A stretch of DNA of 23,795 nt, from IMG/VR virus record IMGVR_UViG_3300028045_000100, positions 1 through 23,795 of that record; one strand, written 5' to 3'. This document shows, in pieces, positions 1 through 23,374 of this stretch. Source of the stretch: a virus. Each line of letters begins with the position of its first letter. The stretch's first letter is position 1. The position numbers were made by a program, and so were the translations under genes. The notes below the pieces were generated by a model that saw nothing but the letters and a program-made list of their open reading frames with translations, did no database searches and was not told the DNA's origin.

Positions 1-979
1 TTGTTCCTATATCAATTGTGGGAATTTTGATTTTTTTAATCTCTTCCTCTATGGGCGTATTAAATTTGTATCTGGTTTCAGTGTGTCCTTTACCTATATC
101 TAAAACCCCTATATCTGGAAATAAATTAACTGCTAATACTATTATTACATCATTGTCTTTTAATTGGTAACCGAAGTCTATAAGTAAATCTAAATATTTA
201 TATTTTGTACTAAGTTTAATGGATTTTATTTTAATATCCAAATAACTACCACTATTAATATTAATTTTTAATACTACATTTCCATATAAACCAAATTTTA
301 TTCCACCAACATTAACTTTTCCCCATACAGTACCAGCAGCTTCGTCATTACCCATATCCAATACTGGGTTAAATGGGTTATTATGTTTTTTAAACCCACC
401 ATGTTTATTTTTCCAACCCAAATCATAATCTTTTAATTCGATACCCTCTATTGTATATGAAACATCAACATTTTTAATTATATCTGGCATTTTAGAGTTT
501 GTGTCTATTTCTTTAATCTTGAATTTTTCTCCGTAAGGTAATTTTAATGTTACTGCATCATTTATTAATTTTAAGATAATTGATTTTGTACTTTTATTAG
601 ATAATAATTTACTTACATCCATAGAATTTGTCTCTACTTTACGTATGATATCTGAAACTGATTGTGCGTAATTTTCACCAAAATCAGATCCTTCTGTATT
701 AAACCCTAAACCATTTAGTTCCTGTGATAGATCTTCTTTATTTTTAATGGTATTATTATCACCAAATAAATAAATCCCTAATACTTCTGCAGTTTTATTA
801 CCAAATCCAGGTTCACCAGTATCCATACCAGTTTTTTTCTCTAAAAACGATTGTATTTCATAATAATTTGGTCCAGGTAATTTTGTTTTTGACCCTTGTT
901 CAACCAATAAGGTATCACCTTTCTTAAAAGTATAAAGTCTTTTGATTTTATGAATTTCCTCTGTTAGAGATATTTTCAT
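1..979 (-). CDS. Leader-bearing putative virion cargo protein, 3' end beyond the window
   Basis: The reading frame starts at ATG 979 and stays open for 326 codons to the left edge, so the C-terminus is missing. I do not recognise the protein. Residues 5-16 (LTEEIHKIKRLY) match the leader of the proteins starting at 23374, 21848, 18607 and 18032. The leader is followed by LLVE at residues 24-27, an L-x-E site of the T4 gp21 protease type. After it comes a Gly-rich segment (GFGNKTAEVLGIYLFG), then a probably beta-rich part with alternating hydrophobic residues (KFGLYGNVVLKININSGSY and onward). It starts five bases after the stop of the acidic 263-residue gene, so the two are probably co-transcribed. 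By analogy with T4 internal proteins it may be packaged in the capsid; the function of the mature part is unknown. Confidence 0.85.
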   Translation of the reverse strand, partial: MKISLTEEIHKIKRLYTFKKGDTLLVEQGSKTKLPGPNYYEIQSFLEKKTGMDTGEPGFGNKTAEVLGIYLFGDNNTIKNKEDLSQELNGLGFNTEGSDFGENYAQSVSDIIRKVETNSMDVSKLLSNKSTKSIILKLINDAVTLKLPYGEKFKIKEIDTNSKMPDIIKNVDVSYTIEGIELKDYDLGWKNKHGGFKKHNNPFNPVLDMGNDEAAGTVWGKVNVGGIKFGLYGNVVLKININSGSYLDIKIKSIKLSTKYKYLDLLIDFGYQLKDNDVIIVLAVNLFPDIGVLDIGKGHTETRYKFNTPIEEEIKKIKIPTIDIGT

Positions 980-984
980 AATTA

Positions 985-1776
985 CTATTCGTTATCTTCA
1001 TCGTTATCAGAATTAAAAGAATTTCTTATTTCTTTTTCATCGTAATTATCGACATCACTTTGGGTTAAAGTATATTCTTCTTCCCCTTCTGTTGCATCAT
1101 AACCTTCTTTATCTGCCCAAAAATCAGTTAATTTAACACTGTATGGAAATGAATCCATCGATCTCATTTCTAATTTCTCAACTGGAGTAGGATTTCTTTT
1201 TTCGATTTCTTTTTCTAAATCGTCAATTTTTCCTATTACTTGATCCATACCACCGATTTGAGATTCTAAATCTGATAGTTTACCTAATAAATCGTCCATT
1301 TTGGTACTCATCCCCTCTACAGAAGATTTAGTTTCTTCAGCTTTATCTACAATATCAGTTACATCAACCTCAACGGTTTCTTCATCAGCGAATTCATCTG
1401 TAACCTCAGCACCCTCTCCTGCATCAGCAAATGGGTCAGTATCTCCTCCCGTATCAGCTGCGAATGGATCTTCAGTACCAGCATCACCTTCTGGTGTTGC
1501 CGTATCAGCTGCGAATGGATCTTCAGTACCAGCATCACCTTCTGGTGTTTCTCCACCAGCATCAGCTGCGAATGGATCTTCAGCAACATCCTCACCACCT
1601 TCAACCTCATCACCAACAGGGTCTTGTTCCGTTAAATACGTCTCACCACCTAATAATAAATCATCCAAATTTACATCTGCATTTCTATCATTAGTTTCTT
1701 CAGGAACATAAAAGGTATATTCTAATAATTGTAGGTGTCTTTTTAATTCTTCCGCTAATAATTTTTTCTTATCCAT
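985..1776 (-). CDS. Very acidic repeat-containing protein, possible prohead core/scaffold or structural protein
   Basis: The product has 263 residues. Residues 1-30 form an amphipathic Lys/Leu/Glu helix (KKLLAEELKRHLQLLEY). Residues ~50-130 are low-complexity and acidic, with tandem copies of a 17-residue unit containing EDPFAAD and TPEGDAGT. Residues ~135-195 look like a coiled coil (VDKAEETKSSVEGMSTKMDD and onward). A more ordered segment around LEMRSMDSFPYSVKLTDFW is followed by another acidic tail. Extreme acidity plus coiled coil resembles phage prohead core or scaffolding proteins, but I cannot match it to a named family with certainty. It follows the 62-residue gene by five bases and precedes the leader-bearing gene by five bases. 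The alternative is a virion structural protein outside the core. Confidence 0.85.
   Translation of the reverse strand: MDKKKLLAEELKRHLQLLEYTFYVPEETNDRNADVNLDDLLLGGETYLTEQDPVGDEVEGGEDVAEDPFAADAGGETPEGDAGTEDPFAADTATPEGDAGTEDPFAADTGGDTDPFADAGEGAEVTDEFADEETVEVDVTDIVDKAEETKSSVEGMSTKMDDLLGKLSDLESQIGGMDQVIGKIDDLEKEIEKRNPTPVEKLEMRSMDSFPYSVKLTDFWADKEGYDATEGEEEYTLTQSDVDNYDEKEIRNSFNSDNDEDNE
1451..1583 (-). repeat. In-gene tandem repeat, 51-nt unit
   Basis: Two 51-base copies (1451-1501 and 1502-1552) agree over about the first 48 bases. A partial third copy (1561-1583) is displaced by six extra bases, so the spacing is 51 then 57 and the reading frame is kept. It encodes the EDPFAAD/TPEGDAGT units of the acidic protein. 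The near-perfect DNA identity points to recent slippage or unequal recombination. Confidence 0.9.
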
Positions 1777-8367: not shown

Positions 8368-8694
8368 TTAATTATTACCGTAAAGAGTTTTATATTTCTC
8401 AACCTCTCCTATATATTGTTGTAAACTATCCTTAAAGGGAAATGGTATTCTAATAATTTCATTATCTGGTATATTTTCCTCTACTCCACCATATCTTGGA
8501 TTAGCCAATAATATTAACCAACCATGATAAGGATTTCCATAATAATTTTGACTTAATTTATCCAACCTTGTCCTTTGTGCAAAATAAACTACTGATTTAT
8601 CAGAGTTTTTTGGTTCTATTTTTATAAAAGGTAATGGTTTATATTTACCATCCACTTTAAAATCTTGATATCTATCGAAATATTGTTTTGACAT
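8368..8694 (-). CDS. 53: Baseplate wedge protein, gp53-like with LysM-type fold
   Basis: The product has 108 residues. The core SVVYFAQRTRLDKLSQNYYG, then GWLILLANPRYGG, then IPDNEIIRIPFPF reproduces the pattern of gp53/LysM-type baseplate proteins: a strand, an R(T)RLD helix, a YYG turn, a W.(I/L)(L/M)..N helix and a closing I..IP strand. T4 gp53 is a baseplate wedge subunit, and LysM-like small proteins also link tube and baseplate in other contractile systems. At 108 residues it is shorter than T4 gp53 and holds little beyond this domain. It lies 14 bases after the 1164-residue baseplate gene and six bases before the hub gene. The family assignment is fairly sure; the exact position in the baseplate is inferred. 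Confidence 0.8.
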   Translation of the reverse strand: MSKQYFDRYQDFKVDGKYKPLPFIKIEPKNSDKSVVYFAQRTRLDKLSQNYYGNPYHGWLILLANPRYGGVEENIPDNEIIRIPFPFKDSLQQYIGEVEKYKTLYGNN

Positions 8695-8708
8695 AATTTT
8701 TTATTTTA

Positions 8709-11700
8709 TTATTTTAACCCATTTTCTGTATAAGTAAACTCTTTAGTTTTTTTACTTCCTGATTCATTATCTAGTAAATATGATATTACTTTAACTTTAT
8801 TATTTTTCTCACTTAACTTTTTAATTTTTTTATCATTTTTTTCAATATCTTTATCATTTTTCTTTATAGTTTTTAAATCATCACTTATATTACTTGAAGT
8901 TCCTCCCGATATTTTACCTTCTAAAACTTGATTATTATTTTTATACTTTTCATTTAATTCTTTTAAATCTTTTAATTCGTTAGCATTTTTTTCAAATGAT
9001 GTAAGATAGGTTTTTAAATTATATTCCTTACTGTCGGGTTCGGCTGGTTTTGTATCATTTATAATATCTTTAAAACCACTGTTATTTTGAATACTTATAA
9101 TAACTTTTGTTTCACCAGTAGAAGTTATTACAATGTTATTTTCACCTTTAATTGCAATTGTTATATCACCATCTTTATTAACATCTGTACTTCCACCTGT
9201 ATTTTTACCGTCCATACCTTGTTTTGTTATCCCTTCAGTTTTTAATGATTCCGTTAATTTATCTATACCATCTTCTCCTAAAAGGGCCTTTTTTAGTTCT
9301 CCTAATTTAACACCATCCACTATTTTACCTTTGGATAAATCTATTTTATCTGCTCTAGGATCATACATTTGTGTGTTGGCGTAATAATTAAATGAAACCG
9401 CGTTTTGTAATCTATTAATTGGACCAACTAAAGAATGCCCACCAATTAAATCCACACTTAATTGAACATTAGCTATCATGGGTTGTACCCCTATACCTTC
9501 TGGATTTAAATCCCATTTTATACCTGACTCATCATAAGTAATACTTAAACTATTAATCACTACTTTTGTATGGAAAAAGTCACCTATTCTTAATATACAA
9601 ACAGGTGGTCTACCAAAAGATAGGTTTTGAGTTTGGACTTTATCTTGATTACTATTTATACTCGGACCTTGTCTCATACATTGATTTAAAAAGGTTAATC
9701 TAGTGTTTAATCCCTCTGGTGTTGTTGAATGATATCCTGGTTGAAAATATTGTATCTTTTGAGATATTGTAGAAAAGTAGTTTGGGTAATTGGCATCAAT
9801 ATAATCAAAATAATTACTTTCATCTATTATTAAATTATCCACTAATTGTGCAAATTCTGGGTAGTACGACAACCCATCTAATGATTGTTCTTTTGGTTCA
9901 GCCCCTGCGGTTGCATCGTTTTCTAAAATAATATCTACCCTTCTATCATTTTTGTTGTCACCAACTGACAACGTATTTCCTTTTCCTTGTATCTTTTTGA
10001 CATATGAACTAGGTTTTATACCTGTTAAGGTATTTATAAATTTATTAAATGCGTCTTCTGCCCTTTCCTTTGATTGTTTTTTCTGTGCCCCTTTGGTGTC
10101 ATCTGATTTTTCTTTTTCACTTAAAAATTTTGTACCTTCTCTTGGAAAATCTTCGTATTTTCCTGCGAATCCAGTGCTACTAATTTTTAATTTACCACCA
10201 TCAGCAATAATTTCATTAGCAATTTTAGTAAGCTCTGAAAAATCTGGATTACCATCGGTGTCAGTAGTACTACCCTCTACATAAAAAACAGTTGTTGTTT
10301 TTTTAACTTTATATGTGTTACTTTTCTTTTGAAGTGCCACCTCTTTTATTTTATTGTTTATTGCATCCCTAGTAACTTGACTAATATCTCCATTTTTATC
10401 CAATAAATCTAAAAAGTCGTTAGGGGTTACGCAACCAGCGAAAAATCTTTCTATTGCATCATTTTGGTTCCCTCTATATCCATTGATTACTTTTGGGTGA
10501 TCAACAATTATTTTAAATGATAGTTGACCACTTCTTTTAGCGTTATTATAAGTATATACTGGTTCACTTCTACCTATAAAATCTGTTGAAGTCCAATTAG
10601 ATGAAGTGTTTTCATCAAAAGTTAAACCATAGGGTGGAAACCACATAATTCTACCTTTATTCCCACTTAATATGTCCCCAGGACCTATTTCACTTAATGG
10701 TAGATCTGGTAAATTATCCGCCCAAGCCAAATTTTCTATTGAAAGCATGTATTTTTTTAGTGTAGTCCTAGAATCTTCTTTTACAGGATGGTATTTTGGT
10801 ATACCATTACCCATTAATACACTTAGGGTTGAATCTCCTTCTGTAACAGAAAACCCTGGTTGGTCAGGTGATGGAGAATAGAATAAACTAGTATTTCTTA
10901 TAGCGTTTAAATAATTATACCTATCATTTACCGTCCAAACTCTACAATAGTTTCCATTGGATTCCGCATCAATTAATGCGTTTGGGCTTATTGCGTTACC
11001 CCTACTGATTAACCTATCTTCTTTTTTATCTTTAAAAAACTTTTTTGTTTGATTTATAAAGACTTCTGTTTCACTATTATTAACTAATTCTTGTGTTTTA
11101 TATAGTAATGTCTTTTCGTTAAAATTACTTTCACCACCAGTCCTCCAAAAGAATTCTTCATTAACATCTGTTCTAGAAGAGTTACCACTTGTGTCTGTAA
11201 CCCCATTAAAATCAGAACTATCAAATGTTTTTGGGGTCAAAGACCCCCTATTAGTATTTTTTTCTGTTCCAATATAATATTTAGGATTAGTACCTTCCTC
11301 AGACGTACCCTGTAACCTCCTGTCTTCGTAGAATGGTTTATATGTGTTTTGACCTAACAAATCGAATAAAAACGTCACCTGTGAAACACTAGTTCTTTCT
11401 AATAAAGTATTAACTCTACCTTCAGTACCAAGAGTTGGTTCAACTCCTTCCTCTTGATCACCAGATTGTCCAGGATTTTTATTATATTCATTCCATCCTA
11501 CAGCACCATTTGGTAATGTATTAAAATATTGTTCTGAACCCCTTAATCTATTAACATAACTATTGACACCTCCATCATTACCTATTGGTGGTGTAATATT
11601 TCCAGTACTGGGTGTTTCAACATTAGCTTCTTCCTGAATTTGAGATATTTTATCAATTATTGTTTTTTCAAGTTCTTGACCTCCGACTAATCCCAAAGAA

Positions 11701-14424: not shown

Positions 14425-15120
14425 CTATGATAATTTTATAATTCTAATATCCCCACGATCACGATTACCATTATATCTACCATTTTTATATGATAATTGT
14501 AAATAAACAGATTGACTTCTATCCTTTCTATAACCCTTTAAAAATATCAATAATGAAACATTTTTACGTAAACTATCATTTGTTACATTTAATATGTACC
14601 CCTCATTAGTTTTTTTAGTGGTTAATATATTAAATACATCTCTACCACTAAATACCTTTTCATATTCTTTAGAAGTATCTGCTTTTACAGATAATTTAAA
14701 TTTATCCTCGAACTTTAAACTTATGGTATTATAAGATTCATCACGATCAGCAACCACTGCATTGTCATAGGATGACCTTTTAGATAATTTATCATCAATC
14801 CTAGCCTTAATTTCTTCAAATTCACTACTACTTTTATCTAACGAATATTTCTTTTTTGAATTGGAAAAAATGTTTGGATCTTCAATATAATCATCTATTC
14901 TTTCATCCGCATTTCTTACAGCTTTATTTATCGTATTTCTTAAATACTCTTCACCACCATTTCTTAATAAACTATTTACTATTTTAGGACCAAACAACTG
15001 AATACCCGTCTTTATTATACCAAATACCTCATTGATTTTAGTGGTGTCGTAAATTAAATCATCAATTTCGTTATTTAATGATTCAATAATTAAATTTTGT
15101 TTCTCTAAATTATTTAACAT
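14425..15120 (-). CDS. Hypothetical protein between gp26-like and tape measure genes
   Basis: The product has 231 residues and no family that I recognise. The N-terminal ~110 residues are helical and charged (LNNLEKQNLIIESLNNEIDD, TINKAVRNADERIDDYIED). The C-terminal half is strand-rich and basic (YNTISLKFEDKFKLSVKAD, VSLLIFLKGYRKDRSQSVYL, DRGDIRIIKLS), suggesting a helical arm plus a beta domain. It ends one base before the tape measure start. In T4 the corresponding interval holds 27 and 28, but I see no similarity to either. A small tail or baseplate assembly factor is the reasonable guess from position. LIIE at residues 10-13 resembles a prohead-protease site but lacks the rest of the leader, so I do not count it as cargo. 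Confidence 0.8.
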   Translation of the reverse strand: MLNNLEKQNLIIESLNNEIDDLIYDTTKINEVFGIIKTGIQLFGPKIVNSLLRNGGEEYLRNTINKAVRNADERIDDYIEDPNIFSNSKKKYSLDKSSSEFEEIKARIDDKLSKRSSYDNAVVADRDESYNTISLKFEDKFKLSVKADTSKEYEKVFSGRDVFNILTTKKTNEGYILNVTNDSLRKNVSLLIFLKGYRKDRSQSVYLQLSYKNGRYNGNRDRGDIRIIKLS

Positions 15121-15159: not shown

Positions 15160-15276
15160 CTAATCTTTTTGTGGATATAATTCGTTAAGAAATATTCTTC
15201 TAGTATATGTGGGCATTATCATAATATCACTATATGAAAAATTACCGTCTTTAGTTAAGTGAAAAATTTCCTTCAT
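15160..15276 (-). CDS. Small gp51-like baseplate hub assembly frame downstream of gp26-like gene
   Basis: ATG 15276 gives 38 residues (KEIFHLTKDGNFSYSDIMIM, then PTYTRRIFLNELYPQ). The pattern E-hydrophobic..L...G.FSY.D...MP...RR.F...L is typical of small tail-assembly or gp51-like proteins and of C-terminal extensions of gp26-like proteins. The same frame is open upstream to ATG 15396, inside the gp26-like gene in the +1 frame, and the part directly upstream (SKYLSSLMKEIF) also looks genuine. It could therefore be a separate protein started 16 bases after the gp26-like stop, or the tail of a gp26 fusion made by +1 frameshifting at CTC-TAA. In T4, gene 51 directly follows gene 26; gp51 is needed for hub assembly. 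The family link is moderate and the true start is uncertain. Confidence 0.55.
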   Translation of the reverse strand: MKEIFHLTKDGNFSYSDIMIMPTYTRRIFLNELYPQKD

Positions 15277-15292
15277 TAAGGAACTTAAATAC

Positions 15293-16060
15293 TTAGAGTT
15301 CAGGCCAGAAAAAAGATTTGTTGAGTCTAAGAAAGGTGTTAACGGATTCCCCCCCTTGAATCCGCGCTTTTGTTTCAAAATCAATACCAGGTTCATTTTC
15401 CCTAATATATTTAGTTAAAGTTCTACTATCTAAAATAGACATAGTTTTAATGAAATTACTTATATAGATTTTATCTCTATTACCATCAAGTTCCATTATA
15501 AGCTTTTCTAATTTTAATGTTAAAGCAAATGATATATCAGTTTCAAAACGCTTTTTCATAAACTCATCCTTTTCATCTATATCTTTTTCATCTTTACCAT
15601 TTAAGAACCTAAATTTTATTTTTTTCTTACTTTTTGGTAATTCAAAGTCAAACTCATTATTTTCATCAGGATTAATAGTTAATTTTTTTTGTTTGAGTTC
15701 ACTTAGATTAATAGTTCCCTCAACAACATCCCCATTTTTATTTAAAACGCCCTGTTTAAATTCTTCACCAAAAGAAGTAGACCTTAGAAATAATAATAAT
15801 GCCACTCTATCCCCATCCAATAGTTCTTCAACAGGAAATCCAAGATCTTTTACTTTTCTTTCCAATAAAACGTCTAAAACTCTTCCAGAATTCATTATAT
15901 TAGGAGATACCAATACATTTTCATCCATAGCGGTTAAATATTCAACCTTTACACTACTTTTTTTATTGGGGTATAATAAACCTTGTGATGGTAATTCTAA
16001 AATATCATAAGGTACTTTGTATTCATCAGGTACAAAATTTGGGTCTAATGCATTTTCCAT
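15293..16060 (-). CDS. 26: Baseplate hub assembly protein, T4 gp26-like
   Basis: The product has 255 residues. The N-terminus ILELPSQGLLYPNKKSSVKV, then YLTAMDENVLVSP, matches the LPS.G.(L/F)YP...V.V..(L/M)T..(D/E)E pattern of the T4_baseplate (gp26) family. A charged middle (~residues 120-180) follows, then IYISNFIKTMSILDSRTLTK, and the protein ends in KSFFWPEL, where family members commonly end in an FFWP-type motif. gp26 helps build the central hub of the baseplate. The zinc-ribbon cysteines that I recall from some homologues near the C-terminus are absent here. The gene follows a 70-base gap carrying an exact recurrent motif 12 bases before the start, so it may open a new transcription unit for tail genes. 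The downstream gp51-like frame overlaps or abuts it. Confidence 0.75.
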   Translation of the reverse strand: MENALDPNFVPDEYKVPYDILELPSQGLLYPNKKSSVKVEYLTAMDENVLVSPNIMNSGRVLDVLLERKVKDLGFPVEELLDGDRVALLLFLRSTSFGEEFKQGVLNKNGDVVEGTINLSELKQKKLTINPDENNEFDFELPKSKKKIKFRFLNGKDEKDIDEKDEFMKKRFETDISFALTLKLEKLIMELDGNRDKIYISNFIKTMSILDSRTLTKYIRENEPGIDFETKARIQGGESVNTFLRLNKSFFWPEL

Positions 16061-16130: not shown

Positions 16131-18032
16131 TTAGTCCCCTATACCTTGAACCACTTCTACAGCCGTATTATTATTATTGATAATATTATTTTTACTTTTT
16201 ACGGATTGGTCCCTCACCTGTTTTAAAATTTCATTTAATTCCCCTTCCGATAAATTCTCTATCATCTTATCAATTTCTGCTTTATCTTCATCACTAAGTT
16301 TCGTTTTCTCTTTTATTTTACCCGAAATTTCTTCTCCCTTAAGTCCAATATCATTAAATGTTGATTTTGTCGAATCTATCGCCTGATTAGCATTAACAAT
16401 CCATTCATCAGTGTATCTAATAGATTGTTCCTGAATACCCTCATCCACTAAATTCCCACCTGGTTCATATCTAGCACAACTTACACGCACTGGTTCCCCA
16501 TCCTTACATATAAAATAGTCACAAAAATCATCAGGTAACCATTCTCTAACCACTTTACCACTATCATCTACAACAGGCTTATTAGTATCTAAACCTCTCT
16601 GATATTTAATAAAATCCTGGTATTCACCTTTCCCCATACCATTTATTTTCATACTGTCCAGAACATCAAATTCATCATCATTCCATAAATACCCATCTCC
16701 ATTTTCATAAGCCATACTATTTTGTTCTATAGTACTAATATCCTTAGAATATTTTAACTCATAACACTCAGAAACTTTTGTAAACCCATCCAATCTCCAT
16801 ATTAAAACCTTTGGTTTATGTATATTAAATAATAAAGATTGAGCACCTGGTAGTTTTTGAATAATGTATTTTCCCAAATTGAATAACCCATAACCTAATT
16901 TCGTTTCCATAGCAACAACCGAACCCATAATAGTAGTTTTATAAAGTAAAGAAGCCTTATTCCATGGGGTTTTATATTTACTTGATTTAGTAATGACTTT
17001 ATGTAGTGCTCTTCCTGGCCACAACCCAGCAATATCACTCATCGTTCTAATATTTAGGAATGGCATCAACCCATCTGGTGAAGTCATTCTAAATATACGA
17101 TCAGAGTCTATACCATCAATGGCTTTCATTTTTCCCAAAATCCTACATATCTTATTTTTCGAAGTAAAAACATATTTTATACCAACTTTAGCTACTATAG
17201 TAGTGAATGCTTCCGCATATTTCTCCGACCACTCATTTGTTTCTTCCGCAATGTCTCTTATTATCTTTTTCCCTTTCTCTTTCGACTTAATAAGTGACAT
17301 TTTTTCATCCGCAGCTAGTAAATCATCCAATTCTTTAGTGTCTACTCCACGAACAGACTTCATATCATCAACATGTTTTACCACATCATCAACTATATCA
17401 GTTCCATCATCAGCAGTTTTAAATAAAGCTATTTCATCAACATAATTGTCTTTTAAATCTTTAAACGCCTCTTCTACATTTGACCCTTCTTTCCATACCA
17501 CATCACTAGATAACCTCTGGGAAATATTCTCTTGTAAATTATCTAAATTTTGTTTTGTAGATGATGATTTCCAAATATCATCCAAATGTTTATTTAAAGT
17601 TTTTTCTGCACCATCAAAAGTAATTCGAGTATTCAAATTTGCACCATTATTTTTAAGAGTGGATTTAAAAGATTTCCACCACCCATCTGATAACATAGTT
17701 TTAGATGGTAAAGCACCTGTTCCAGTAGATAATATATCATCTGTCATTTTTGTTATAGAAGAACCCCATCCCTTAGTAATAAATTCATCAAATGCTGGAT
17801 CTTTTCTAACCGCTTTAACCAACCCATCGGCATTAGAAATTTCCGATGAGAAATTTTTCCATTTATTACCTTTTATTACATTTTGTGGTGTAGCATCATC
17901 AACCAAAGATAATAAAGCATCTACCCAAGCAAATCTACCACCAGGACCCGCTTCAGTTATTAAATTACCATATAATCTTTCTTCAGTGAATAAAGATTTA
18001 ATTCTTTCTATTTCTTCGCTAATATTTTTCAT
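16131..18032 (-). CDS. Leader-bearing putative virion cargo protein, 633 aa
   Basis: I do not recognise the mature protein. The N-terminus carries the shared leader (ISEEIERIKSLFTEERLYGN) ending in LITE at residues 24-27, followed by Ala, a good [L/I]-x-E prohead-protease site. Residues ~30-290 are mostly helical and charged (DIVDDVVKHVDDMKSVRG, KKIIRDIAEETNEWSEKYAE). Residues ~350-400 hold a moderately hydrophobic stretch (SLLYKTTIMGSVVAMETKLG) that might touch membrane. Residues ~400-530 contain several Cys and Trp (WLPDDFCDYFICKDGEPVRV, then SCARYEPGG), suggesting a folded domain. The tail is helical and ends in a run of Asn and VVQGIGD. It lies 26 bases after the 182-residue leader gene, with the 10-base tandem repeat running into its start codon. 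Capsid-packaged or injected protein is my inference. Confidence 0.85.
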   Translation of the reverse strand: MKNISEEIERIKSLFTEERLYGNLITEAGPGGRFAWVDALLSLVDDATPQNVIKGNKWKNFSSEISNADGLVKAVRKDPAFDEFITKGWGSSITKMTDDILSTGTGALPSKTMLSDGWWKSFKSTLKNNGANLNTRITFDGAEKTLNKHLDDIWKSSSTKQNLDNLQENISQRLSSDVVWKEGSNVEEAFKDLKDNYVDEIALFKTADDGTDIVDDVVKHVDDMKSVRGVDTKELDDLLAADEKMSLIKSKEKGKKIIRDIAEETNEWSEKYAEAFTTIVAKVGIKYVFTSKNKICRILGKMKAIDGIDSDRIFRMTSPDGLMPFLNIRTMSDIAGLWPGRALHKVITKSSKYKTPWNKASLLYKTTIMGSVVAMETKLGYGLFNLGKYIIQKLPGAQSLLFNIHKPKVLIWRLDGFTKVSECYELKYSKDISTIEQNSMAYENGDGYLWNDDEFDVLDSMKINGMGKGEYQDFIKYQRGLDTNKPVVDDSGKVVREWLPDDFCDYFICKDGEPVRVSCARYEPGGNLVDEGIQEQSIRYTDEWIVNANQAIDSTKSTFNDIGLKGEEISGKIKEKTKLSDEDKAEIDKMIENLSEGELNEILKQVRDQSVKSKNNIINNNNTAVEVVQGIGD

Positions 18033-18070
18033 TGTTTTTTATTGTTTTTTATTGTTTTTCATTGTTTTAT
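18031..18070 (-). repeat. 10-base tandem repeat across a gene junction
   Basis: Four copies of a 10-base unit (ATTGTTTTTY on the plus strand; third and fourth copies slightly changed) start at 18031, 18041, 18051 and 18061. They cover the last codons and stop of the 182-residue gene, the gap and the ATG of the 633-residue gene. An extra ATG at 18062 overlaps the stop as ATGA and opens a seven-codon frame (MKNNKKQ). This looks like slippage of a start-codon region. Confidence 0.85.
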
Positions 18071-18607
18071 CCATCTATCCCAATCCAATGTAGGTTTTTG
18101 GTATATTTTTTTACCATTCACCCATGAAGATGAACTATCTATTTTATATCTATCGACTTTTATCTCCATTTGTATTTCTCCACCATTACAAATAAACTCC
18201 CCCCTATATTCTACATATTTTACTTTTTCATCAATACCATAAGCTGCTTTTAGGTCTTTAGGATTCTCATAGTCCACCTTCCATCCAAACTCATTTTTAT
18301 CGTTAACAAACATATATATTTGTTTCCGATTATCATTTGGGTGTCCACCGCGAACTATAATAGTACATTTACCACCATTATCAAATTCTTTATAATTTAA
18401 ACCCTTATCATCAAGAATTTCTTTAACACAAACTAAATTAGTATCTGGATTAGTGCAATTTCCTGGTTTTACTACCTCATAATCCTTACTTCTCAGTAGT
18501 GTTATAGCTTCTGATTCACTATCACAAGTTTCAACAAGATTACCATATAACCTACTTTCATTAAATAATGACTTTATTCGTTCTATTTCCACACTAAATT
18601 CATTCAT
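18059..18607 (-). CDS. Leader-bearing putative virion cargo protein, 182 aa
   Basis: The smallest member of the leader family. Residues 5-26 carry the leader (VEIERIKSLFNESRLYGNLV) ending in LVE at residues 24-26, then Thr-Cys. The mature part begins CDSESEAITLLRSKDYEVVK and includes several cysteines (in CDSE, GNCTN, LVCVKE, GKCTI and FICNGG), unusual for a cytoplasmic phage protein and compatible with disulfides or metal binding. A strand-rich centre (GKCTIIVRGGHPNDNRKQIY, YVEYRGEFICNGGEIQMEIK) is followed by a Trp-containing tail (DWDRWIKQ). I know no family. It lies 47 bases after the 805-residue gene, with the exact recurrent motif only two bases before its ATG, so its mRNA, if started there, would be nearly leaderless. 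Confidence 0.85.
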   Translation of the reverse strand: MNEFSVEIERIKSLFNESRLYGNLVETCDSESEAITLLRSKDYEVVKPGNCTNPDTNLVCVKEILDDKGLNYKEFDNGGKCTIIVRGGHPNDNRKQIYMFVNDKNEFGWKVDYENPKDLKAAYGIDEKVKYVEYRGEFICNGGEIQMEIKVDRYKIDSSSSWVNGKKIYQKPTLDWDRWIKQ

Positions 18608-18654: not shown

Positions 18655-21072
18655 TTACCAATCTATCATCATATCAACTATACCATCGGATATTTCATCC
18701 ATCTCTTGTACAGTTAGTTTTCCATCATCATCTTTAAGTTTATTAGAAATATATGCAAATATTTTTTCATATTCTTCTCCACCCATTAATTCTAAACAAC
18801 TATTACCCTCAATAGTATCTAAATAGGTGATATTCTTTTTACAATAGGAATTAAATACTTTTTCTGTAGTTTCACAATTACCCTTTCTCCAAGTTTCAAC
18901 ATTTTTCTCTTTAACATACCCCCAAGAATCTTCAGAAGTTAAATCTGGATATATTTTATAATCATAATTTCCACCAGCTTTAACAGAAATCCCACCACTT
19001 GTTATTTCTTGATTTAATTTTTCATCAGTTATATCTTCAAAACCTTGAGTACAATTATCAGTAAAATTATCATATAATGGTAACGTATCTATACCTTCTC
19101 GTAATTCGTATTCTTTAAAATTTGATAGACTAGTGGCGAGCATTTCATCAACCTCTTTATGAGTATCAATATTAAGATCATCAATTAAATCACTAAGAAA
19201 ATTATTTATTTGATCTTCACTTGCCCCTTTTTTTATTAATTCCTTCTTAAATTCTTTATAAGAATACATTTGCATTCCCCCATATAAAAGACCCATTATA
19301 CCTCCCTCTACTTTTGTTGTTGGTGCAACATGTTTCCATAATTTATGGTACATATTTTCCCCAAACGTTCTTTTTAATGATTCCCTAACCGCTCTTCTTT
19401 CATTCATCCCTTGCCTCATCAACCAATCAACCTTTCTCATAAACTCATTATTTTTTTCAGCCCACTTCACCAATTCTTTCTGATTACCTTTTCCAACTTG
19501 TAATGTAATATCATCTAATAATTTTTTACCGCCCGAAGACATAGATTCTCTTTCTAATTGTAATATCTTGGCGATTTCTTTTTCACTCTTACCTCTAGTC
19601 TTACCCAAAACAGTAATTAATTCCTCAGCAGACTCTTTACTGGCTTTATATGTTACACTTAACGCTTTAGACAATAACGCACCACCTAATAAAAATCCAG
19701 CCCTCATAGATGCTTCACCATAATTCCCTTTTGCCAATGATATGCTGACGTTGCCAATTTCCAAAGCCGTTGCCGCTGCCCAAGTAACTGGAGTTGGAAT
19801 TAAATATAATATAATAGATGCAGCATCTATCCAATCTTGAGTCTCCCAGCTATCAATCCATTGTCCAAAAGCATTCAAAGTATCCATAGGTCCCTTTACT
19901 TTTACACCATATTTCTTTCTAAGTTCTAACATCCTATGAGTTGCACCATGTGAAACACAATGAAAATTTGATCTATTAGTTTTAGGGTTTGTCATAGCAT
20001 CTTTACACATAGACTTAATTTTATTAATGTCCTTAGTCCCATACACAAGATCAAACCAATTACCATAATTATGAACCCCAGTTTCTTTCTCAAATGAGGC
20101 GGCACTCCAATTTTGATTAGGTACATTACCACCATGATATACTTGACCCATTGGAAAATAACACATCCATGGTTGTTTTGCTGCACTTGGTAAAAATGTT
20201 CTTTTTTCATTATAACTCTTAAGTGTTCCATATGCATCCATACTTTCAATTAAAACCCTATCTCCACTTCCACTCGAATCATTTCCTAGTGTCCAAAAGT
20301 AAACCATTCTACAACTATCATAACCTCCCAGAAGAAGTGATTTATAGTTTTCAATTTCTCGTAAATATTTATAACCTATTTCATTTATCATGGCTGGTTG
20401 AATATCTTCGTAATTAGTGAAAAATAAATAATAGTCCATATTTTCTTTAGGTACAGTTGGCCAACCCCAAGCCTTTAAAGTTTTATTTCCTTCATTAAAA
20501 CTCATCTCCTTCCACGCTCTTGTTTTTACCTTTTCTTCCCAATATTTTTTTTTATTCCTTTTTTTTTCATAAAAACTTCTTCTATACTTATCTAATTTCG
20601 TATATAATTTAGAATCATTAACCCCTTCATTGTCATCAATAAACCCTGTATAGTTAGGTTCAAACCCATCTGGTATTGGGGCACCTTCTTTTATATACCT
20701 ATAATTATCATCACCACCAATTTCATATTCTTTTCTTATAATACCTTTTCTTCCACCTTTATTAGAGTGGGTTTTCCAACCAGTTTTTAACAAATCCGCA
20801 CCAGAATTATCTGCATAAATCTGCCATTTACCATTTTCTCTATTTTTCACACTTTTTCTTACCCAATGTCTTTCACAATCGGCCCAAACCTTCCATTGAT
20901 AATCATACCCATCTTTAAATGGGTTTTTTATTGTCCAATCAAAAGGTGCATCCCAACCATTCACCCACTTACCTTTTATATTACAATATCCCTTTTTAAC
21001 CACAGGGTCATCTTGTTCACCCAAAAACAATCTATTATATTGAGACTCCGATATTACTATTCTTTGTGCCAT
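18655..21072 (-). CDS. Large leader-bearing putative cargo/effector protein with hydrophobic core, 805 aa
   Basis: The leader differs from its neighbours: RIVISESQYNRLFLGEQ at residues 4-20, with LGE at 17-19 as possible protease site. The N-terminal ~350 residues are Trp/Tyr-rich (KGKWVNGWDAPFDWTIKNPF, NRENGKWQIYAD) with several Lys-rich stretches. Around residues 369-390 comes NFHCVSHGATHRMLELRKKYG in part (Cys, two His four apart), a possible active or metal site. Residues ~414-476 are hydrophobic (IILYLIPTPVTWAAATALEI, AGFLLGGALLSKAL), like the pre-toxin or membrane-insertion segments of secreted toxins. A helical part with another small hydrophobic stretch (GGIMGLLYGGMQMY, ~residue 590) follows, then a Cys-containing C-terminus. 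I cannot name the family. Position and leader suggest a virion-packaged protein delivered to the host; toxin-like activity is speculation. Confidence 0.85.
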   Translation of the reverse strand: MAQRIVISESQYNRLFLGEQDDPVVKKGYCNIKGKWVNGWDAPFDWTIKNPFKDGYDYQWKVWADCERHWVRKSVKNRENGKWQIYADNSGADLLKTGWKTHSNKGGRKGIIRKEYEIGGDDNYRYIKEGAPIPDGFEPNYTGFIDDNEGVNDSKLYTKLDKYRRSFYEKKRNKKKYWEEKVKTRAWKEMSFNEGNKTLKAWGWPTVPKENMDYYLFFTNYEDIQPAMINEIGYKYLREIENYKSLLLGGYDSCRMVYFWTLGNDSSGSGDRVLIESMDAYGTLKSYNEKRTFLPSAAKQPWMCYFPMGQVYHGGNVPNQNWSAASFEKETGVHNYGNWFDLVYGTKDINKIKSMCKDAMTNPKTNRSNFHCVSHGATHRMLELRKKYGVKVKGPMDTLNAFGQWIDSWETQDWIDAASIILYLIPTPVTWAAATALEIGNVSISLAKGNYGEASMRAGFLLGGALLSKALSVTYKASKESAEELITVLGKTRGKSEKEIAKILQLERESMSSGGKKLLDDITLQVGKGNQKELVKWAEKNNEFMRKVDWLMRQGMNERRAVRESLKRTFGENMYHKLWKHVAPTTKVEGGIMGLLYGGMQMYSYKEFKKELIKKGASEDQINNFLSDLIDDLNIDTHKEVDEMLATSLSNFKEYELREGIDTLPLYDNFTDNCTQGFEDITDEKLNQEITSGGISVKAGGNYDYKIYPDLTSEDSWGYVKEKNVETWRKGNCETTEKVFNSYCKKNITYLDTIEGNSCLELMGGEEYEKIFAYISNKLKDDDGKLTVQEMDEISDGIVDMMIDW

Positions 21073-21080
21073 TTATTTAA

Positions 21081-21848
21081 TTAAGTCACTTTAATTTTTA
21101 TTGTTTGTGGACCATCACCCCTTACATTTAATACCTCAATAGTAGGATTAGAAGAAATGCTAGCACTAAGATTATTATCCTTTATAATCTTTTTAATAGA
21201 ATCGGTAATATCCTCTTTATACTCATCCCAAAACATTTTATTATTTTTATTAACCAAAGTATCCTTTGTTTTAATAATAAATTTATCTGTAGTATTCCCA
21301 ACTTTATTTATTCTTCCCCATATTTTATTAGGGTCTTTTACTGAAGATATTTTTATTTCTTTTTTGTTTTCAGCTTTGGCCATCTTTTTAAGTTTTTTAC
21401 TTTTGATATCAAATGGGTCAACTACATCTTCTTTATCCTTTTCTTTACCTAGAGCAACATCTTTAATAGAATAATTTAAATACCCCAACCTCTTTTCATC
21501 TGGTTGGTTTTTGTCGTACATAACTTTTAACATATTTAAAAACTCATCTCTATTCAAACCAGCAAAATTAGGTATTTTTAATGTCTGTTCAAAATTATCT
21601 ACACAATTATTTAAAGTTTCTAATTCTTTAGATAAAAAATCATCAGTAAATATAGATTTGTTTGTTATTTTAGGTCTTTTCTTAGGTTGAAAATTTAAAA
21701 TTTTATTGGAGGCTAACATTAATCTACCATTACAATATTTTAAGGCTTCTTTATCATCTTTTTTCTCAAATTTAGGATCATCTTCCATAATTAACCCCAT
21801 AATAGACTTAATCCTTTTTATTTCTTCATTTAATGTTTCTCTTTCCAT
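21081..21848 (-). CDS. Leader-bearing basic putative cargo protein, 255 aa
   Basis: The leader TLNEEIKRIKSIMGLIMEDD (residues 5-24) matches the shared type in its first half but is shortened: the RLYGN part is missing and LIME at 19-22 supplies the I-x-E site. The mature part is lysine-rich (KKDDKEALKYCNGR, FQPKKRPKITNK, FDIKSKKLKKMAKAENKKEI), which would suit a DNA-contacting internal protein like those of T4. The last ~85 residues (IWGRINKVGNTTDKFIIKTK and onward to TIKIKVT) resemble the C-terminal domain of the upstream 505-residue protein, suggesting a duplicated module. It lies eight bases from both neighbours, so the three genes are co-transcribed. Function unknown. Confidence 0.85.
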   Translation of the reverse strand: MERETLNEEIKRIKSIMGLIMEDDPKFEKKDDKEALKYCNGRLMLASNKILNFQPKKRPKITNKSIFTDDFLSKELETLNNCVDNFEQTLKIPNFAGLNRDEFLNMLKVMYDKNQPDEKRLGYLNYSIKDVALGKEKDKEDVVDPFDIKSKKLKKMAKAENKKEIKISSVKDPNKIWGRINKVGNTTDKFIIKTKDTLVNKNNKMFWDEYKEDITDSIKKIIKDNNLSASISSNPTIEVLNVRGDGPQTIKIKVT

Positions 21849-21856
21849 AATTATTT

Positions 21857-23374
21857 TTATTTAAATTCCACCGTAAATTTATTTTTATTATTAAATACGA
21901 TTTTTGGAGTAATATTTTCTGGGTTATTATAAAATTTATTAACAGCGTTTTCTAATGCGTTTTTAGCTTTATCATGTAACACCCATTTTCCACCAACCTT
22001 ACCCGTCATTTTAAATTTAGTTTTTAATTTAAAAGTATTATTACCTATAGATTTTATGTCACCTATTTTTTTAGTTCTAATGGCACCGTCATACATAACA
22101 TCAACTACCTCACCCTCCATATTATCTTTTTCGGTTACACCTACTTTTGTTTCAGTATCCGTTGTAGTATCATCCGTTGTAGTATCTGACCCGCCTTCCT
22201 CTTCAGCCCCTTCTTTACCTCCCATTACATCTACTTGAGGTAGTTCTTGTACCTTATTTTTTGGGTTTGTTAAAAAAGTAACACCGTCTTCACCTTCTTT
22301 TTCTATCCAACCAAGATCTATTAAATAATTAAAATAATCATCATCATCAAACCCTTTAACTAAATTTACATCTATATTTTCCACATTTTTAGAAACTAAA
22401 GTTTTGTCTTTAATCCAATCATCAAATAAAATGTGTGAAGTATCTTCAGTAACTGCGAATATATTAGTTACAGAAAGATTAGAAAATAACTTAGAATATC
22501 CATCATAATCATAATAAAACTCAAAATCGTCTATAAATAGATCATCAACATTTTTTAAATTAGGTAAAAATTTACCTATATAAAAAGGGTCTGAATCAAA
22601 TACTAATTGTTTAATAGCTGTAACATTAGGAAAATTTTCATTACAAAATTCAATAACACCATTATCCGATTTAAACATAGAAGGATACTCTAATTTTTTA
22701 ATTTCTGTAATAGAACTTAATAATTCTTCAGGTATTTTCATTTTTGGTGTACCACATTTTTGTTCGAATTCACTATTAAACCCAAACAATTTGTAAATAT
22801 CCAACACCCCATCAACCATAGACTCTTCTAATGTTTCTTTAGTAACTACCATACAACCATCATCACCCACAGGTGGACACCCCTCAGTAACCTTAGTTTC
22901 TTCCTCACTATTAACAAAATTATCACATTTCCCTTTAATTTCATTTAAAAGGGTTAATAATTCTTCTAAGTCATCTTTTACTCCAAACTTTTTGGCGTCA
23001 GCACCATCCTTTTCTTCATCTATCACTTCTATTCCCTCATCAATTTTTTTCCTATTTTCTGGATTACATATTACTTCTATCCCTTTTTTACAATCCATTC
23101 CTTCTATTTCTTTTTTACTTTCTTTAAGTACTAATAATAATTCTTGAATCTTTTTCTTTTTCTCTTTATTAAATGTAATCATTTCTCCAGTTTCCGCTAT
23201 TGAGATTAATTTCTCTAAAATTTCTATTGCCCTATTTTGTTTTGGTTTAAACCATTCACACGTATCATCATTCACTACCTCTTGTTCCACCAAATTTCCA
23301 TATAATCTTGATTCACCGAATAATGATTTCATTCGATTAATTTCTTCATTTAATGTGTTATATTTTCTTTTCAT
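21857..23374 (-). CDS. Leader-bearing putative cargo protein with LRR-like segment, 505 aa
   Basis: This is the first gene of the leader cluster. Its leader (LNEEINRMKSLFGESRLYGN, residues 8-27) ends in LVE at 28-30, then Gln. Residues ~40-170 are helical and charged with scattered cysteines. Residues ~215-308 contain LRR-like repeats about 22 residues apart (PNVTAIKQLVFD, PNLKNVDDLFID). Around residue 395 an acidic linker (GSDTTTDDTTTDTETK) is encoded by a perfect-phase 15-base repeat at 22158-22187. The last ~95 residues form a domain (GDIKSIGNNTFKLKTKFKM and onward) that resembles the end of the next protein. It lies 127 bases after the tail tube stop, behind a terminator and a copy of the recurrent motif. 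LRR-type recognition is possible; the function is unknown. Confidence 0.85.
   Translation of the reverse strand: MKRKYNTLNEEINRMKSLFGESRLYGNLVEQEVVNDDTCEWFKPKQNRAIEILEKLISIAETGEMITFNKEKKKKIQELLLVLKESKKEIEGMDCKKGIEVICNPENRKKIDEGIEVIDEEKDGADAKKFGVKDDLEELLTLLNEIKGKCDNFVNSEEETKVTEGCPPVGDDGCMVVTKETLEESMVDGVLDIYKLFGFNSEFEQKCGTPKMKIPEELLSSITEIKKLEYPSMFKSDNGVIEFCNENFPNVTAIKQLVFDSDPFYIGKFLPNLKNVDDLFIDDFEFYYDYDGYSKLFSNLSVTNIFAVTEDTSHILFDDWIKDKTLVSKNVENIDVNLVKGFDDDDYFNYLIDLGWIEKEGEDGVTFLTNPKNKVQELPQVDVMGGKEGAEEEGGSDTTTDDTTTDTETKVGVTEKDNMEGEVVDVMYDGAIRTKKIGDIKSIGNNTFKLKTKFKMTGKVGGKWVLHDKAKNALENAVNKFYNNPENITPKIVFNNKNKFTVEFK

Follow-up and report, generated by a model that had tools for sequence, protein, structure and literature searches.

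The question raised by this DNA is whether the N-terminus of a gene at its left edge belongs with the leaders of genes elsewhere in the same stretch and, if so, what such a leader is for. The window, as we call the whole stretch analysed (an IMG/VR viral contig of 23.8 kb), comes, judging from its sequence, from an uncultured T4-like myophage; it carries baseplate-hub matches and a tail-tube-like gene, and its near-identical neighbour, L004, encodes a gp32-like ssDNA-binding protein and a RecA/UvsX-like protein. The gene at the edge, hereafter the 979 gene, has the following features.

2..979, minus strand: the 979 gene, leader-bearing; complete at its 5′ end, cut at its 3′ end by the window edge; 367 aa in L004 (4772-5875)
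899..979, minus strand: leader of the 979 gene, residues 1-27, MKISLTEEIHKIKRLYTFKKGDTLLVE; predicted propeptide, 9.0 bits to the class A profile
899..907, minus strand: LVE, residues 25-27, then Q28; predicted prohead-protease site
629..892, minus strand: first domain of the predicted mature 979 protein, tandem peptidoglycan-binding-like repeats, from an hhalign alignment to a G003 protein

The 979 protein begins MKISLTEEIHKIKRLYTFKKGDTLLVEQ, and its leader can be written as MKIS-LTEEIHKIKRLYTFKKGDTLLVE, with the cut mark before Q; the LTEEI motif occupies residues 5-16. The preliminary description had placed LLVE at residues 24-27, exactly where the translation has it. It had also called the gene truncated, which is true of the 3′ end at the window edge but not of the 5′ end, which is intact, the complete 367-aa gene being present in L004 in a form 99% identical to the window copy. 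The ATG lies 5 nt past the stop of gene 985-1776, which we call gene D. Because this 5-nt gap between gene D and the 979 gene recurs in most orthologues (L004, L141, L142, L151, L152, L154, L160 and L245), an artefact of annotation at the start is excluded, and the earlier view that no translation-start artefact is involved holds.

Several lines of evidence bear on whether the leader is real. The 979 leader aligns with that of the gene starting at 23374 without a gap from the L before EEI, with 10 of 24 residues identical and equal spacing from EEI to LVE. When a profile was built from 16 other leaders of the window and its relatives, with the 979 gene excluded, the 979 N-terminus scored 9.0 bits, a value reached by 8 of 20,000 composition shuffles (15,950 of which scored at all); this is the comparison that had been proposed as able to overturn the assignment, and the assignment survived it. 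In a ranking of 986 nonredundant N-termini from the phage group, 26 clear class A leaders are followed at once by the 979 family, at 9.0-11.6 bits, and the next ranks below it (L118, gene D family) likewise look like leaders. The full-length 979 protein matches the leader profile weakly under default bias correction (E 0.2), partly because of an unrelated EEEIKKIKIP stretch near residue 310; scoring of the N-terminus is the fair test for this leader and was used in its place. The orthologues are 75-93% identical in the leader as against 22-54% in the body, and in the family alignment of 478 columns, 21 of the 28 leader columns are invariant and only 27 in all the remainder. L25, E27 and Q28 do not vary in the eight aligned sequences, with V, L, T or S as the residue between L and E, and a further homologue, in L245, has LLEE at the site. 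Conservation of the leader at the DNA level was also considered and is weak by codon comparison. The evidence of the orthologue family settles the question, and at the level of sequence the 979 gene is confirmed as a true leader carrier.

The window holds seven leader genes in all, namely four of class A (16131, 18059, 21081 and 21857), one of class B (18655-21072), the 979 gene and gene D.

17952..18032, minus strand: class A leader of gene 16131-18032, MKNISEEIERIKSLFTEERLYGNLITE then A; class A profile
18530..18607, minus strand: class A leader of gene 18059-18607, MNEFSVEIERIKSLFNESRLYGNLVE then T; class A profile
21016..21072, minus strand: class B leader of gene 18655-21072, MAQRIVISESQYNRLFLGE then Q; unmatched by the class A profile
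21783..21848, minus strand: short class A leader of gene 21081-21848, MERETLNEEIKRIKSIMGLIME then D; class A profile
23285..23374, minus strand: class A leader of gene 21857-23374, MKRKYNTLNEEINRMKSLFGESRLYGNLVE then Q; class A profile
985..1776, minus strand: gene D, conserved acidic coiled-coil protein with a divergent leader; upstream neighbour of the 979 gene and fixed border of a slot
1627..1776, minus strand: leader of gene D, residues 1-50, ending YLTE then Q; conserved KKxLLSEELKRxxQLLEY plus [LI]xEQ

The 979 gene had been announced as the sixth carrier; a carrier it is, but gene D raises the count to seven. Similarly, the five leaders of the cluster had been taken as one type, which holds for the four of class A but not for 18655-21072, whose leader is of another class (RIVISESQYNRLFLGEQ). 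The broader claim, that the leader marks a dispersed family rather than a single local duplication, is borne out by its presence on otherwise unrelated proteins in more than one genomic place. As expected of a T4-type propeptide, class A leaders stand on unrelated bodies (MORN proteins, P-loop proteins and proteins with no assignment), and further leader copies lie at other loci; L168 and others, for example, have MRNLFEELDRIKNLMVYEKGTPITE, and a P-loop protein is tagged in L101. In this last contig, gene 8641-9396 joins the leader MNLQENIHRIKEMMGLLTE to a kinase-like P-loop domain (SKI, E 4e-5); the class A leader of L005:2860-4155 precedes nine MORN repeats (Pfam, E 5e-70), which are unusual for a phage protein, and that of G006:6162-7154 a MORN-like sequence. 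G003 and G008 (~129 kb each) have strong class A leaders in a single place, the cluster flanked by the tail-tube and baseplate-hub genes, and in addition the divergent leader of gene D. The leftward search that had been suggested, through the 7.4 kb of L004 beyond the window, found no more class A leaders; it did find, at the end of that contig, a leader of class C (INLTESDLKRIVKRVLNEG). Class C leaders ([IV][RK]LTE[SN]D[LI]xRIVK...) are also seen in more distant T4-like phages (L047-L049 of G010, L096, L100, L108 and L111), in some of which they precede a conserved YMFFSNLEQ stretch downstream of gp23. In a cultured relative, the Flavobacterium phage immuto, a check of late genes revealed no leaders of this kind, although gp23 and a protein annotated as prohead core serine protease are encoded there.

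Gene D also bears on the statement that the ten genes between the two places lack the leader and so serve as an internal negative control. That control fails, as gene D has a divergent leader and an [LI]xEQ end. Its protein starts KKKLLAEELKRHLQLLEY, with YLTEQ further on, and about 75 gene D loci share KKxLLSEELKRYxQLLEYTFYVPEE or a near form, a linker variable in both length and sequence, and then [LI]xEQ (mostly ...EQDP). Gene D orthologues score 7.3-7.4 bits against the class A leader profile, adjoining the 979 family in rank. The orthologues of gene 14425-15120 also have a helical N-terminus, ending in several cases in LLNEQ or IVEQ; the window copy has LIYD. Gene D matches the PHROG 'internal head protein' weakly (E 0.006); from this match, its charge and its coiled coil, one might guess at a role in the prohead core. 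Searches for gene D in bacterial genome contigs, and tblastn searches with both the 979 protein and gene D against phage records, gave no matches. Some other features of these genomes were seen in passing. A 78-aa ORF in another frame (window 15160-15396) shares ~100 nt with the end of the baseplate-hub-like gene 15293-16060, and a similar small ORF lies at the equivalent place in some relatives; the 129-kb relative G003 has a phage tmRNA gene (L022:1540-1879, tag GNAEYAMAA) as well as tRNA-Ala, -Asp and -Glu; and G008 (L029-L035) and G009 (L042-L044), from separate samples, have in common a long gene run with equal predicted starts and lengths, including the same 547-aa ORF inserted between two late genes.

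In most relatives, the gap from gene D to the ssDNA-binding-protein gene measures 54-142 bp and usually contains no gene. Where this slot is filled, the gene adjoining gene D always bears a leader, which belongs to one of four classes: A of the 979 type (L004, L141, L142, L151, L152, L154 and L160), B (L140), C (L178) or F, MKTRLDETNKMRKLMGLxLL[TV]E (L166, L176, L188, L202, L204 and L218). The gene D protein of L140 is 100% identical to that of the window, and yet different tagged cargo lies behind it, namely a gene with a class B leader and an LEA_2 (WHy-type) domain (L140:4241-4810, E 2e-7) and a 979 homologue that is only 28% identical. In sequence, this looks like an exchange of tagged genes between close relatives. 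Leaders are exchanged on a single domain as well. Residues 22-126 of the 979 family are homologous to the start of the G003 protein L007:3401-5374 (hhalign 97.5%, E 7e-12), whose leader is of class B, and the alignment runs through LLVEQ/FLSEQ. Since one mature domain thus stands behind class A and class B leaders, the classes can be argued to do the same job. The homologous domain of the G003 protein matches PG_binding_2 above the cut-off (E 1.6e-5); the PG_binding profile does not match the 979 protein itself and matches its homologue in L151 below the cut-off (E 0.004). Nothing significant was found for the 979 gene in Pfam or PHROGs, a PDB profile search with its protein gave no matches, and a structure prediction from 8 sequences, with a mean pLDDT of 44, was set aside. 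The peptidoglycan-binding-like domain invites the guess that the 979 protein has a part to play at the wall of the host cell as the DNA enters.

What all these leaders have in common is their end. In class A, [LI]xE lies within 25 residues past the helix core in 26 of 28 leaders and [LIV]xE in all 28, compared with 20% of windows from the same proteins, and every one of the nine leaders without a site at the usual place has another [LIV]xE[QGSATE] within 16 residues downstream (background 8%); as the leaders are mutually related and the trials not independent, the p-values of these site tests are indicative. In the 986 nonredundant proteins of the group, [LI]xEQ is found at residues 16-30 at 7 times and [LI][NTSV]EQ at 15 times background, with no comparable rise for [LI]xDQ or Ex[LI]Q. 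The T4 prohead protease gp21 has the specificity L/I-X-E (PMC9026906). Relatives encode a Peptidase_S77 of the gp21 family (E 2e-23) and Gp23 (E 4e-72), and the 99.9-kb contig G014, whose gene D is 67% identical to that of the window, brings together gene D, leaders of classes A, B and C, Peptidase_S77 (E 1.6e-25), a T4 portal (E 3e-77) and Gp23. Neither a protease nor a capsid gene lies in the window or in its closest relative, L004, both being fragments, and the link from the window leaders to these genes runs via the relatives' contigs; among the first eight of these, only G011 has Peptidase_S77, the others being, as far as seen, without a head module, and further Peptidase_S77 genes were located through gp23 relatives. 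The N-termini of all gp23-like sequences listed read LYENQ..L[LI][NTS]E, mostly with S, A or T as the next residue and a Ser/Gly-rich stretch thereafter, and L[LI][NTS]E stands where the end of a cleaved propeptide would be expected. A protein encoded soon after gp23 in G020 (L111:10867-11586) has MSIKKLNRELLEWYKEDKLLTEATGTNGSGSF, in which the leader end LLTEA, together with a Ser/Gly linker, resembles the capsid protein's own site.

In our view, the leader is likely to be a T4-type capsid-targeting propeptide, longer than its T4 counterpart and existing in several exchangeable classes. An amphipathic N-terminal helix, which in the 979 protein has one face made up of L5, I9, I12, L15 and Y16, would dock onto the scaffold core of the prohead, so that tagged proteins would be loaded into the head before DNA packaging. 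Once the shell had closed, the gp21-type serine protease (S77) would cut past [LI]-x-E, in the 979 protein between LVE27 and Q28. With the tag removed, the mature protein, its peptidoglycan-binding-like domain foremost, would remain in the head and be ejected with the DNA, and the place behind gene D would act as a slot for the gain, loss and exchange of tagged cargo genes. The sequences themselves show the conservation of the leaders, the conservation and shifting of the site, the protease and the matching capsid site of relatives, the exchange of leaders on one body and the contents of the slot; that the tagged proteins dock to the core, are in fact cleaved, reside in the virion and are ejected is what we infer.

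Set against this reading are the fragmentary state of the window and L004, the unlikeness of the leaders in length to the capsid-targeting sequence (CTS) of T4, the leaderless late genes of immuto and the position of the class A cluster between tail-tube and baseplate-hub genes (in the window, G002, G003 and G008), as its products may be tail proteins. The same position is the main argument for a docking peptide in tail or baseplate assembly, in which [LI]xE would be an uncut helix end-cap. We nevertheless think this explanation unlikely: the motif at the leader end equals the site of the capsid protein, the site shifts along the chain while the helix stays, the enriched Q directly past E is not needed for an end-cap, leader classes without sequence likeness have only the [LI]xE end in common, and the slot of gene D and the 979 gene lies between baseplate-type and replication genes. 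The exchangeability of the leaders and the duplication of adjacent genes would also fit a relic of common ancestry or a recombination joint, with homologous 5′ ends on which bodies are swapped and no function in the protein. So would the codons, which at identical residues agree somewhat more often in the leader than they do in the body. However, codons differ at 16-42% of identical-residue leader positions among 979 orthologues and at one third to more than half of them among window paralogues; it is therefore the amino acids that are kept, not the DNA. Moreover, classes without recognisable common sequence occupy the same slot, and we regard a relic or joint as quite improbable. Scarcely credible, finally, is a signal directed at the host, such as a tag for secretion, for the membrane or for degradation, that works inside the infected cell; PG-binding, LEA_2 and MORN bodies, which elsewhere act on envelopes or cells, speak for it, whereas the leader sequence has no hydrophobic core or lipobox, gp23 of the same genomes has the same terminal motif, and the acidic, conserved gene D bears a leader too.

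The capsid-targeting propeptide has close parallels in known systems. As with IPI, IPII, IPIII and Alt of T4 (CTS), an N-terminal propeptide ending in [LI]xE is carried by differing proteins, whose bodies are accessory and poorly conserved, in a phage group with a gp21-type protease and a gp23 of the cleaved type. The T4 CTS is ~10 residues long, for example in IPIII (PMC9026906), and the leaders here are 19-50, so they represent a variant rather than the T4 CTS itself; unlike the T4 CTS, they also fall into several sequence classes, sit mostly on larger proteins (~120 to 1030 aa) and have a slot behind gene D. The ejection proteins of phiKZ/SPN3US are similar in that many internal proteins bear prohead-protease propeptides and are processed, and identical propeptides have been reported on the diverged paralogues gp53/gp54 (PMC5694885); those phages use an S80-family protease (PMC5694885) and SxE/AxE motifs, in contrast to Peptidase_S77 and [LI]xE here. 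Gene D, acidic, core-like and with an [LI]xE site, is reminiscent of gp67/gp68 of the T4 prohead core, to which no sequence match was found. In the open-access literature, most subscription journals lying outside the scope of the search, we found no description of a leader system of this kind.

On balance, we lean towards the view that this uncultured T4-like group has a modular head-cargo system, with interchangeable leader classes, dozens of tagged proteins and a slot behind gene D for swapping them. If this is true, a short tag would make it possible to tell, with no more than the DNA sequence, which proteins these uncultured phages carry in their heads and probably deliver to the host ahead of others; many hypothetical proteins would become candidate ejected effectors or counter-defence factors, and proteins could be loaded into T4-like capsids by means of naturally occurring tags.
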